Counted from the stretch's first letter, positions 3,697-8,506 are shown. The stretch: DNA of 64,000 bases from Bacteroidota bacterium (GCA_026391735.1 JAPLDL010000019.1:124001-188000), one strand, 5' to 3'. The notes: generated by a model from the letters alone, not told the origin. Program-made: numbers and translations.

Positions 3697-4047
3697 ATGA
3701 AACCAATCGTCGTTGACCAGTCTCTTATAGCTTATTGCGGGTTATATTGCGGCGCCTGCAAGAAATACATTTCGGGAACCTGCCTCGGATGCCATGAGAA
3801 TAATAAGGCTGGATGGTGTAAAGTAAGAGCATGCAATATCCAGAACAATTATCAGAGTTGTGCCGACTGCAAGGAATTCAGCAATCCAATGGATTGCAAA
3901 AAATTCAATAACTTCTTTTCGAAATTCTTTGCGCTGGTGTTTAAATCGGACCGGGCGGCATGTATTGATAAAATCAAAAAAGAAGGATATAACGGTTTCG
4001 CTCTTTACATGGCTGAACATAAACTGCAGTCCATAAAACGAATTTGA
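3697..4047 (+). CDS. DUF3795-type cysteine-rich protein
   Basis: YCGLYCGACKKY..C.GC....WCKVRAC...CADCKEF cysteine spacing typical of the DUF3795 family. Confidence 0.75.
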   Translation: MKPIVVDQSLIAYCGLYCGACKKYISGTCLGCHENNKAGWCKVRACNIQNNYQSCADCKEFSNPMDCKKFNNFFSKFFALVFKSDRAACIDKIKKEGYNGFALYMAEHKLQSIKRI

Positions 4048-4050
4048 TTA

Positions 4051-4752
4051 TCAACCGTGCTTGCTTATCTTCAACAGGCGCTCAGTGTCATTCAAAACTA
4101 TTTTCTTCCCTTCCAGAGTTATTAATCCTTCATTGTGGAATTTCCGCAAAGTATGGATTACGTTTTCTTTGGAACAACCTGCAAATTCAGCAAACTCCTG
4201 GCGTGAAAGCGACAGCACAAAAGAATTACTCAGATAAATGTTCTGGGAAAGGAAAATCAGGATATCCGCAATCCTTCCATTGACCTGTTTATGAGCAAGA
4301 CTTATAAAATTAAAAATAGAACTGCGGAAGATATCCGTAATGAATTGAAGCATCTTGAAAAGGTACAAGGTATTTCCCAATGCGATTCTTGTAAGAAGTG
4401 CAACATCAATCGTACACCCTTCGCATTCTTCTATAGCACAAACCGAAAACAGGTTGAACTCAGCATTCACCAGGTTCGCACCCCCAATCAGTGCAGGTGC
4501 CTTGTTAATTGAAAGAATGAGGTTTTTACCGTTCTCGTCCTCATAATTGAATTTAATAATGCCTTTCCTTAAAAAAAGGAAGTGAGTCGATTTGGCTCCC
4601 TGCTTTAAAATCACTTCCCCTTTCTTATATCGAAGCTGCACAGATTTCGACCTCAGCTTTTCGAACTCTTCCTTCTGTATATACTGACAGCTGATTGTCT
4701 TAAAAAGACAATCGTCACAGTCGTAATAGCGTTGGTGATTGATCTGGTCCAT
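4051..4752 (-). CDS. Crp/Fnr-family transcriptional regulator with FNR-like N-terminal cysteines
   Basis: cNMP-binding fold, C-terminal HTH (LSRQEFAEFAGCSKENVIHTLRKFHNEGLI), N-terminal CDDCLFKTISC (C-x2-C-x6-C) plus central CAIEECEGC. Confidence 0.87.
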   Translation of the reverse strand: MDQINHQRYYDCDDCLFKTISCQYIQKEEFEKLRSKSVQLRYKKGEVILKQGAKSTHFLFLRKGIIKFNYEDENGKNLILSINKAPALIGGANLVNAEFNLFSVCAIEECEGCTIDVALLTRIALGNTLYLFKMLQFITDIFRSSIFNFISLAHKQVNGRIADILIFLSQNIYLSNSFVLSLSRQEFAEFAGCSKENVIHTLRKFHNEGLITLEGKKIVLNDTERLLKISKHG

Positions 4753-4933: not shown

Positions 4934-5737
4934 ATGGATATTCAATCAATTTGTGTAATGGGTGGGACTGGAAAAACAGGGGAACCCGAAAAAGTGGAAC
5001 GCTTTGAACTTAATATGGGTGACATTATAAGTATTGTCGGACCTACAGGTTGCGGAAAAACCACCCTGATCAACGATATTGAGCTCTTTGCAAACCGAAA
5101 TACTCCATCCAACAGACTGGTGATGATTAACGGTGAACCCATTTCCGAAGATTTTACTTTTGATCCCAGGAAACACCCGATTGCCCTCATATCCCAACAT
5201 ACAAATTTTCTTTCGGATCTCCCTGTGGGTGAATTCCTGAAGATACATGCGAAGGTAAGGGGAGGGGATAATCCTGAGCAGATGATTGGCGAAACCCTGG
5301 AATTTGCCAACCAGCTTACTGGTGAAGCAATTATAACCACGACGGGAATGACTGAACTTTCGGGCGGACAAACCCGCTCATTACTTATTGCCGATGCGGT
5401 GATCATAGGCAATTCTCCCATAATACTGCTGGATGAAATTGAAAATGCAGGGATTCACAGGTCCCGGGCCCTGGAACTCCTTAAACAGTTTAAAAAGATT
5501 TTTGTATTTGTGACTCATGATCCACATATCGCTCTCCTGTCGGATTACCGGATTATCATGAAAAACGGATCCATGGAGAAACTTATCTGCACTAATCCGG
5601 CAGAAAGAAAAGTTGCCGGCGAACTTGGCAAAATAGATAACCTTATGCTGAATTTCAGGACATACATCAGAAGCGGTCAGGAAATATCTGAAAAAATGAT
5701 GGCAGAACAAATGGAAACATTGAAACTAACAAATTAA
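4934..5737 (+). CDS. Stand-alone ABC-type ATPase, no membrane partner nearby
   Basis: Walker A GPTGCGKTT, signature LSGGQTRSL, Walker B IILLDEIE, H-loop THD; start moved from 4868 to the internal Met (MDIQSICVMGG) because a -7 box lies inside the longer ORF. Confidence 0.8.
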   Translation: MDIQSICVMGGTGKTGEPEKVERFELNMGDIISIVGPTGCGKTTLINDIELFANRNTPSNRLVMINGEPISEDFTFDPRKHPIALISQHTNFLSDLPVGEFLKIHAKVRGGDNPEQMIGETLEFANQLTGEAIITTTGMTELSGGQTRSLLIADAVIIGNSPIILLDEIENAGIHRSRALELLKQFKKIFVFVTHDPHIALLSDYRIIMKNGSMEKLICTNPAERKVAGELGKIDNLMLNFRTYIRSGQEISEKMMAEQMETLKLTN

Positions 5738-5740
5738 CAT

Positions 5741-6442
5741 ATGAAGCTGATAATATTTGCCGGTCCCCCGACCTGCGGGAAGACCACAGTTATAAGACAG
5801 GTTATACGAAGGATGCTTAAAAAAGGCCACAAACCTGCTTACCTGAAAATAGATGTATTGTATGCCGATGAGGATAAAATCATTAGTGAGGAGTTCGGTA
5901 TACCTGCAAAAAAGCTGTATTCAGGTGAATTATGCCCCGATCATTGCAATGTCGTGGTAATGGATGAAGCGGTGGAATGGGCTGAGAAATCGGGTAGTGA
6001 TTTTCTGTTTGTGGAAACAGCCGGGTTATGCCTCCGCTGTTCTCCATACATTGAAAACTCACTGGGTGTAGTGGTTCTCGAAGCCACCAGCGGGATGAAT
6101 CTTCCTTATAAGATCGGCCCGATGCTCACCCTTGCCGATATCGCGGTAATCACCAAGATCGACCTGATCTCACAGGCCGAACGTGAAGTTTTCCGTTACA
6201 GGGTCATCGAGGCTGCCAAAGAGATCACCGTTGTGGAAAGCAATGCCTTATATGGGATCGGGATTGATCCTATTGTTAAGCATATTGAAAGATCGGGTGA
6301 GATTGAGCAACCCATGTTTTTAAGGGGTAATCCTCCGGTTGGGACCTGTACCATCTGTGTTGGCAAGAAGGAAATTGGGGCCAAGAACCATTTCGGGGTA
6401 TTGCGCACCATGGAACATGATCTTTTTTATATTGGAGAATGA
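5741..6442 (+). CDS. HypB/CobW(COG0523)-like GTPase with CxxC motifs
   Basis: P-loop GPPTCGKTT, switch ETAG followed by CLRC, TKIDL guanine-specificity motif, C-terminal CTIC. Confidence 0.78.
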   Translation: MKLIIFAGPPTCGKTTVIRQVIRRMLKKGHKPAYLKIDVLYADEDKIISEEFGIPAKKLYSGELCPDHCNVVVMDEAVEWAEKSGSDFLFVETAGLCLRCSPYIENSLGVVVLEATSGMNLPYKIGPMLTLADIAVITKIDLISQAEREVFRYRVIEAAKEITVVESNALYGIGIDPIVKHIERSGEIEQPMFLRGNPPVGTCTICVGKKEIGAKNHFGVLRTMEHDLFYIGE

Positions 6443-7638
6443 CATCCGCAATCCCAATTAATATGCATCCAAACAATATGAATAGTCCACTCATTTATCT
6501 TGACAATGCGGCAACCACCCCGATAGATCCGGAGGTTTCCAGGGCTATGCAAATGGCAGCGAAGGAATACTATGGGAATGCTTCCAGCCTGCATTCTGTT
6601 GGGACTATTGCCCATGAAATTCTTGATCAGGAAAGGGCAAGGCTCGCTTCACTGATCGGGGCCAGTCCTGATGAGATCATTTTCACGGGAAGCGGTACCG
6701 AAGCCAATAACCTTGCCTTGAAAGGGGTGGCATTTGCCAATGCTCACCGGGGCAGGCATATCATTGTATCGGCAATCGAACATGATTGTGTCCTGAAAGC
6801 TGCCCGTTGGCTGGAAAGCCAGGGTTTTAGCGTCACTTATCTTCCGGTCGACCAACATGGGCTTGTCGATGTACAGGTTCTTGAGAATGCTTTTACCGAT
6901 AAGACCATTTTGGTTTCGATGATGCATGTCAATAACGAAATCGGTACCATTGAACCTGTGAAAGAGATTGGTAATTTATGCAGGGAGAGAAATATTTATT
7001 TTCATTCCGATGCCTGCCAGTCATTCGGGAAGATCCCATTGAATGCAGCTTCTCTTAATGCTGATCTGCTTACAGTGAATGCCCATAAACTCCACGGCCC
7101 AAAAGGTGTCGGCGCTTTATATATTAAGTCGGGGGTGAACATTGAACCCTTGCTTCACGGGGGCGGGCAGGAAAAAGGCATACGCTCATCCACCGAAAAT
7201 ATTCCTGGAATAATAGGGTTTGTTATGGCTGCGGAAATAGCTTGCAGGGAGATGGATTCTGAAACGAAGAGAGTTACAGGTCTCCATGAGCATATATTAT
7301 GCATCCTGAAGCAGAGAATTGATGGAGTTTATTTCAATGGTTCCCTCAGTGCCCGGGTTCCCCATAATATAAATTTCTGTATTGAAGGAATGGAAGGGGA
7401 GGGGATACGGCTTCAGTTACTGCTGGATGAGGCTGGAGTTTGTGTATCCACGGGGTCTGCCTGTTCCTCAAACGATGGGGGAAATCCCTCGCATGTCCTC
7501 CAGGCCATCGGCCTGGATCCCTTCCAGGCAAGGGGAGGAATCAGGTTGAGCCTGGGCCGGTTTACAACGCAGAAAGAAATTGATCGTTTCCTGGATGTCA
7601 TTTCTGAAAAGGTAAAACAGCTTAACCCGATATTTTAA
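6439..7638 (+). CDS. Cysteine desulfurase (NifS/IscS-like)
   Basis: YLDNAATTPIDPEV, NAHKLHGPKGVGALY (PLP Lys), GGGQEKGIRSSTEN, catalytic STGSACSS; 4-nt overlap with the upstream GTPase. Confidence 0.93.
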   Translation: MTSAIPINMHPNNMNSPLIYLDNAATTPIDPEVSRAMQMAAKEYYGNASSLHSVGTIAHEILDQERARLASLIGASPDEIIFTGSGTEANNLALKGVAFANAHRGRHIIVSAIEHDCVLKAARWLESQGFSVTYLPVDQHGLVDVQVLENAFTDKTILVSMMHVNNEIGTIEPVKEIGNLCRERNIYFHSDACQSFGKIPLNAASLNADLLTVNAHKLHGPKGVGALYIKSGVNIEPLLHGGGQEKGIRSSTENIPGIIGFVMAAEIACREMDSETKRVTGLHEHILCILKQRIDGVYFNGSLSARVPHNINFCIEGMEGEGIRLQLLLDEAGVCVSTGSACSSNDGGNPSHVLQAIGLDPFQARGGIRLSLGRFTTQKEIDRFLDVISEKVKQLNPIF

Positions 7639-7689
7639 CCCCTTACCATAGCTGAGCTGGAAAAAAATATAACCATTAAAACCAATATT

Positions 7690-8379
7690 ATGTTTAAAGA
7701 AAACAACCTTCAGTTAGATCTGATCAAGCCTCTTCCGGGCCTCGATTGCGGCGCATGCGGTTTCCGTACATGTGAACTTTTCAGCAACCACCTGGCCAAG
7801 AACCCCCCTGACATTAAACTTTGCATCCATATTGAAAGCAGGAAACCGCAGGCTTCAGACCCGGTGGCCTGCCTAAGCTGCCATCATGCCGGCCTTGGTG
7901 AGAAACTAGGCTGGAAAGACAACCTGAAAAGAGAGTTTGATTTCATACTCGATTCATTTGATAATGAACCAGGCCCCCGTGAAACGATTCTTCCTTATAA
8001 TCCGGCCCTGGTGAAGGACCTGGGAGTAAAAAAGGATGACATTATGATTGGCCGTCCCATGGGAATGTCATGCGGATGCCCTGTTACCCATTGCGGTGTT
8101 GTGACCAGTGTTGATGCACGGAATGGGGTTATAAACTGGTGTGTAACTGGTCCATTAAAGCCCCGATTACAGGGTTTTATCGATATTGGTTATTATGTCG
8201 CCCAGGGTTATGAAGGACTCATTAAAGAAACCAATGTTGATATTAAACTTGGCATGCGCTACTGGTTCCTGCCGCGACGATGCATGCTGCAGTGGAGGCA
8301 TAGCGGGCTTGTCAATGCCGTCACAAAACTGAAAGACGGAGGTTTCAAAGTGAGGATTGAAGGATTATTTATCGGATAA
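7690..8379 (+). CDS. Fe-S binding protein with N-terminal PF04060-like domain and further Cys clusters
   Basis: LPGLDCGACGFRTCELFSNHL...C plus CLSCHH and SCGCPVTHCG. Confidence 0.75.
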   Translation: MFKENNLQLDLIKPLPGLDCGACGFRTCELFSNHLAKNPPDIKLCIHIESRKPQASDPVACLSCHHAGLGEKLGWKDNLKREFDFILDSFDNEPGPRETILPYNPALVKDLGVKKDDIMIGRPMGMSCGCPVTHCGVVTSVDARNGVINWCVTGPLKPRLQGFIDIGYYVAQGYEGLIKETNVDIKLGMRYWFLPRRCMLQWRHSGLVNAVTKLKDGGFKVRIEGLFIG

Positions 8380-8479: not shown

Positions 8480-8506
8480 CTGCCTGTATATTCAGGCAGT
8501 TTTTTT
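8480..8506 (+). terminator. Rho-independent terminator
   Basis: CTGCCTG-tatatt-CAGGCAG followed by TTTTTTT. Confidence 0.85.

Follow-up and report, generated by a model that had tools for sequence, protein, structure and literature searches.

Four genes packed on one strand of a Bacteroidota genome encode an ABC-type ATPase, a GTPase, a cysteine desulfurase and an Fe-S protein. Do their products make up one machine that assembles or inserts a specific Fe-S or metal centre, as an earlier note on this DNA proposed, and had such a machine been described before? The analysis below retains a conserved core of ATPase, GTPase and Fe-S protein; for the desulfurase as a fixed member and for a specific Fe-S target it gave no support.

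The operon and its proteins

The window, i.e. the whole stretch of 64,000 nucleotides that we analysed, belongs to an assembly of 2.8 Mb in 25 contigs, 80% complete, whose relatives in our scans are Bacteroidales. The operon lies on the plus strand and runs from a soluble ABC-type ATPase of 267 aa (4934..5737; Pfam ABC_tran, 8.2e-16) through a G3E-family GTPase of 233 aa (5741..6442; Pfam cobW, i.e. cobW/HypB/UreG, 1.7e-12) and a NifS/IscS-type cysteine desulfurase of 399 aa (6439..7638; class-V aminotransferase, 4e-81; TIGR03402, 2.4e-138) to an Fe-S protein of 229 aa (7690..8379; PF04060, 8.4e-9). Successive genes are separated by 3, -4 and 51 nt, and an intrinsic terminator with a 7-bp stem and a T run follows on the same strand (8480..8499; CTGCCTG-TATATT-CAGGCAG-TTTTTTT). 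The coordinates and gaps first read from this stretch are thus borne out, and so are the protein kinds, on which Pfam and NCBIfam agree, even if none of the four proteins exceeds an NCBIfam equivalog cut-off. A search of the operon for structured RNA and tRNA found none. A CRP/FNR-type regulator, identified by domains (Pfam HTH_Crp_2, 1e-12; cNMP_binding, 7e-12) and synteny, is encoded divergently (4051..4752, minus strand) and repeatedly accompanies the module in Bacteroidota (40 loci). We rejected an FNR-type [4Fe-4S] motif in this regulator, the pattern having matched only 14 of 40 sequences. Upstream of it, a small Cys-rich DUF3795 protein (3697-4047) is kept by several close relatives. 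Neither this gene nor the other near neighbours, secA, pyrH and frr (named by inspection), is a sulfur gene.

The ABC ATPase carries the Walker A motif GPTGCGKTT and the signature LSGGQTRSL. It had been described as lacking a membrane partner and as not obviously SufC; indeed, no permease gene adjoins it in the gene list of the window, and SufC is absent from its best PDB matches. Its orthologues, 58-75% identical, stand immediately upstream of the GTPase in other families and phyla. Apparent ABC-GTPase fusions at three loci (L028, L064, L074) were rejected, because a stop codon separates the two genes.

GTPase sequences from different phyla share 67-73% of their residues. The AF2 model of the GTPase (pLDDT 82, pTM 0.85) has its best fold matches in HypB (2hf8, 7.7e-12) and UreG (4hi0, 1.1e-10). 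Seven residues, C65, H68, C97, C100, C203, C206 and H217, are invariant in an alignment of 23 sequences, and among them are the two CxxC pairs noticed earlier (97/100 and 203/206), which are invariant across phyla. In the alignment with HypB and UreG, whose metal-binding residues are known, C65-P66 falls on the CP of UreG and on a Cys with which HypB binds metal; C97 and C100 stand on either side of the third metal Cys of HypB. The GTPase is therefore predicted to have a HypB/UreG-like metal-site region, and its initial description as HypB/CobW-like is supported as concerns the G3E fold and this region.

The desulfurase keeps both its PLP lysine (HK, 216/217) and its catalytic Cys (SACS, 340-343) and, judging by these residues, is an intact NifS-type enzyme; its TIGR03402 score of 461 bits is below the equivalog cut-off of 530.75. 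In the Fe-S protein, the four Cys of the N-terminal PF04060 motif (C20, C23, C28, C45) are invariant across phyla; this motif occurs in RnfB and corrinoid Fe-S proteins too, a likeness that had been pointed out. Four other residues, C130, H134, C198 and H204, lie in the beta-rich C-terminal domain and are invariant in an alignment of bacterial and archaeal sequences. They are the likely loaded site and, in a domain without a solved fold, provide precise targets for mutants. The AF2 model of this protein has a pLDDT of 83.5, and a fold search against the PDB at E<=0.001 returned no match.

Recurrence and gene neighbourhoods

Among 40 genomes searched, i.e. the source genome and its relatives, 14 have a close GTPase, and the order CRP-ABC-GTPase-NifS-FeS is retained in the loci examined among them. 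Scanned with a GTPase alignment, 85,462 species genomes yielded 178 confirmed loci, of which the best 80 were kept. In these 80 the GTPase (67-99% identical) has the ABC gene directly upstream and/or the FeS gene downstream, except at contig edges (e.g. L057 and L076, where the GTPase begins the contig and only NifS is visible after it). At one locus (L033) no FeS gene was detectable downstream of NifS. Since the arrangement recurs in this way, the packing seen in the window is not due to chance. The 80 loci are from Bacteroidota, Omnitrophota, Planctomycetota, Acidobacteriota, Thermodesulfobacteriota, Schekmanbacteria, Patescibacteria, Pseudomonadota and two methanogen lineages, an assignment to be taken with care since most of the genomes are metagenome bins and the taxon of some may be wrong. 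The recurrence across distant anaerobes for which the earlier note had called was thus found, with ABC-GTPase-FeS in many bacterial phyla and in methanogens. The quartet does not hold together as a fixed unit: of the 59 complete loci drawn from the best 80 of the 178, 43 have NifS, placed between GTPase and FeS, and 16 lack it. Hence, the conserved core is ABC-GTPase-FeS. A small DUF6356 protein is inserted within several Bacteroidales modules (L066, 9899-10123; L029, L039, L042, L052, L065, L068).

The family is rare, with no member in a sample of 246 other Bacteroidota genomes and members in 5 of 346 Thermodesulfobacteriota, three of these being already-known carriers. In the GTPase tree, few deep forks of which are supported, the copies of Methanocella and Methanoregulaceae are nested among bacterial ones, which suggests horizontal transfer. 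Pairwise protein distances between loci correlate overall (r 0.87-0.92; ABC/GTPase 0.92, GTPase/FeS 0.91); restricted to the far bacteria, the correlation is 0.93 between ABC and GTPase but 0.55-0.60 when FeS is involved.

What do these genes neighbour? We clustered the ORFs around the best 80 loci and compared them with 60 control stretches from 20 carrier genomes. At least one cysteine/methionine gene (or CysC) occurs at 21 of the 80 loci and in 1 of the 60 controls (Fisher p 3e-5), counts that are indications rather than clean statistics, because the control stretches mostly begin at contig ends and some are short, and because the 80 loci are phylogenetically uneven and mutually related, so that p-values overstate their independence. 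The same holds for PLP enzymes of cysteine/methionine metabolism (16 copies vs 1), CysK/CBS (8 vs 0), CysE (4 vs 0), MoeB (6 vs 0), CDO (3 vs 0) and Rrf2 regulators (36 of 80 loci vs 0 of 60 stretches). At the other 59 loci no recognised sulfur gene is present in the stretch examined. Individual neighbourhoods show CysC-CysD-CysN immediately 3' of FeS (L075), CysE-CysK-MoeB (L046), CysK-CysE (L041), CDO and CysK within the operon (L073), an SsuA-type transporter (L084), and MetNIQ with an OAH sulfhydrylase over cut-off and a cysteine-synthase-like enzyme (L086). The genes called CysC, CysD, CysN and CysE here are presumed to be such from recognition of their sequences and not from a family scan.

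Archaea provide a second setting. In methanogens, a trio of ATPase, Ni2+-binding GTPase and COG2000 Fe-S protein has been pointed out beside coenzyme M genes, its putative role being given as unknown (Chadwick et al. 2025, PMC12068725). When 60 archaea around Methanocella were searched with a profile, 11 had a full-length relative of the Fe-S protein; two of these relatives are of the bacterial type, and the other nine are more distant. ABC, GTPase and FeS are together in all ten archaeal regions examined, and NifS lies between GTPase and FeS in only one of these (L152). Three regions (L153, L154, L155) contain a six-gene run ABC-GTPase-FeS-COG1900-cysteate synthase-ComDE, the COG1900 protein of L155 matching PF01837 at 1.7e-90. 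Among the nine distant-type loci, a cysteate-synthase-like PLP gene adjoins the module in seven, ComDE is beside it in six and COG1900 in five, where the names cysteate synthase and ComDE are based on Pfam domains, gene context and recognition and have no curated equivalog. We take these archaeal modules to be the published trio. The Fe-S protein of the window is probably COG2000, a name inferred because the operons match. Hence the suggestion of an undescribed cluster is only partly right: the archaeal trio had been pointed out without a function, and besides this paper we found in open-access full texts no relevant one naming COG2000. For the bacterial NifS-bearing form and its sulfur-assimilation context we found no earlier description. 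A substrate-binding protein resembling NMT1/SsuA recurs beside archaeal modules (L152, 12063-12989; L156, 4811-5767; L157, 5104-6042; L158, 4379-5347); it has no adjacent permease, and no signal peptide is obvious in it.

Functional readings and their rivals

The genes found around the module, in bacteria and in archaea, suggest a role in sulfur assimilation and in the making of thiols. Common to both are enzymes placing sulfur into small molecules, i.e. cysteate synthase, ComDE and COG1900 in archaea and cysteine/homocysteine synthases in bacteria, and this leads to a reading in terms of sulfur delivery or of a metal-sulfur centre. This reading is the most economical one for a set in which the GTPase is of metallochaperone type, the ABC ATPase is soluble and the Fe-S protein has a second invariant Cys/His set. 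We would give roughly even chances to ABC-GTPase-FeS working as one machine, driven by NTP, that either assembles or fills a metal-sulfur centre or else transports activated sulfur, on behalf of sulfur assimilation and the biosynthesis of thiols or sulfonates. In such a machine, the desulfurase, where present, would draw sulfur from cysteine; the Cys/His site of the GTPase would bind metal and GTP hydrolysis would lead to its release; the ABC ATPase would power a conformational or redox change; and the Fe-S protein would be where the work is done, the [4Fe-4S]-type N-terminus standing next to the C-terminal Cys/His set, and it would then serve or mature a partner enzyme making a C-S bond. Our data show the conservation, the order of the genes, the motifs, the fold of the GTPase, the sulfur genes around the module and its coexistence with SUF; complex formation, the identity of the metal, the direction of sulfur flow and the partner enzyme are what we infer in this scheme. 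A narrower version seems to us rather unlikely: the COG2000-type protein would receive a metal-sulfur site from GTPase and ABC ATPase and would pass activated sulfur on to partner enzymes, with NifS as the donor in the bacterial form. The sulfur might be supplied as sulfide, persulfide or sulfite, and the partners might be cysteate synthase in methanogens and cysteine/homocysteine synthases in bacteria. Cysteate synthase requires sulfite, whose source in methanogens is, to our knowledge, unclear.

The search for a specific target enzyme, which had been called for, produced none: [FeFe]-hydrogenase, COG1900 and sulfite reductase all failed co-occurrence tests. It is conceivable, though rather unlikely, that the module is a dedicated maturation set for one specific metalloenzyme, with insertion in the manner of HypB, UreG or CooC. 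The G3E fold of the GTPase fits this. In methanogens the target would be MMP16 (COG1900), a coenzyme M synthase. The six-gene runs agree with this, and so does the distribution of MMP16: of the 9 archaea that have the distant-type module, 7 possess MMP16 over cut-off (8 with a split gene), and of the 51 that lack it, 20 do (Fisher p 0.065 or 0.009). MMP16 is thus associated with the module, not required: those 20 archaea have MMP16 without the distant-type module, genome G374 has the module beside cysteate synthase and ComDE (L157) yet has no MMP16 over cut-off, and none of the tested Bacteroidales with the module has COG1900. We rejected it as an obligate target on the first and last of these grounds; outside Bacteroidota COG1900 occurs in 9 of 22 carriers. 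In bacteria the target would perhaps be a HydE-like radical SAM protein. Proteins of the HydE family are found in or after the module operon of L022 (9907-11016), L023, L025 and L073 (4374-5474); those in the L022 and L073 operons exceed the TIGR03956 cut-off, and both genomes have a second HydE elsewhere. This favours the maturation reading, but HydE is present at only 4 of the 80 loci, and of 34 genomes that carry the module 21 have it over cut-off and 13 do not. These 13, together with HydG, which is over cut-off in 33 of 40 relatives, module or not, led us to reject [FeFe]-hydrogenase maturation and an [FeFe]-hydrogenase accessory operon. At one of the 80 loci (L031, 4321-7066), an hgcA-hgcB pair (PF03599; NVWCAAGK motif) and an ArsR-type regulator immediately precede the module, on the same strand, a single case for which a link with hgcAB was rejected.

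Might the Fe-S protein rather reduce sulfite, a sulfonate or a corrinoid, with the NTPases energising low-potential electron transfer? The solubility of the ABC ATPase and the PF04060 motif, which RnfB and corrinoid Fe-S proteins also carry, speak for it, as does the lack of siroheme sulfite/nitrite reductase in 39 of 40 tested Bacteroidales, in which CysD is common. This enzyme is missing from carriers and non-carriers alike, with CysD common in both, so its absence fails to separate them and the module was rejected as its substitute. Characterised G3E GTPases of this type, moreover, deliver metals or cofactors (PMC9164220). We regard electron transfer as quite improbable. Very improbable is a second general Fe-S assembly system, replacing SUF or acting under stress, even though NifS, an ABC ATPase and an Fe-S protein recall the logic of SUF, and Rrf2 and CRP/FNR-type regulators are near the module. 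The proposed check for suf elsewhere in the genome found SufB/D in the source genome (G000) and in nearly all relatives, module present or not. With SUF in the same genome, the module is not the housekeeping system; as a SUF substitute it was rejected, and as sole system it is largely refuted. The loci without NifS, the patchy distribution among the relatives and the absence of SufC from the PDB matches argue in the same direction. The module is not for general Fe-S assembly.

The reading in terms of sulfur delivery or a metal-sulfur centre bears on an acknowledged blank beside coenzyme M biosynthesis, the archaeal trio. Bacteria without the known coenzyme M synthase family carry the same machine, which makes the module separable from methanogenesis. 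The built-in desulfurase and the nearby cysteine/methionine genes point to a broader, testable role in sulfur chemistry.

Comparison with known systems

The GTPase of the window resembles HypB and UreG in its G3E fold (E 1e-11 to 1e-10) and in having Cys/His at metal-site positions. Yet, it is far under their equivalog cut-offs (hypB 50.7 vs 121.2 bits; ureG 28.4 vs 204.2), it carries the additional CxxC at 203/206, and no HypA, hydrogenase or urease genes adjoin it. COG0523 (CobW) is defined by a CxCC motif (PMC9164220), which the GTPase alignment does not contain. Like SUF, the operon pairs the gene of a soluble ABC ATPase with that of a cysteine desulfurase. It differs from SUF in that SufB/D and SufU are lacking, in the NifS/IscS type of the desulfurase and in the addition of the GTPase and the PF04060 protein; SUF itself is encoded separately in the same genome. 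The earlier remark that no SufB/D or IscU/NifU scaffold sits beside the operon holds for the gene list of the window and for the neighbourhood clusters. The Fe-S protein has the four-Cys cluster motif of corrinoid Fe-S proteins and RnfB, whereas its C-terminal domain has no solved relative. The closest counterpart is the methanogen trio, with the same three kinds of homologous proteins in the same order, contiguous in L153-L161. In its distant type, the GTPase is about 44-53%, the ABC ATPase about 44-48% and the Fe-S protein about 29-37% identical to the bacterial ones. The bacterial form, in contrast, often has NifS between GTPase and FeS, and its loci are without cysteate synthase, ComDE or COG1900.
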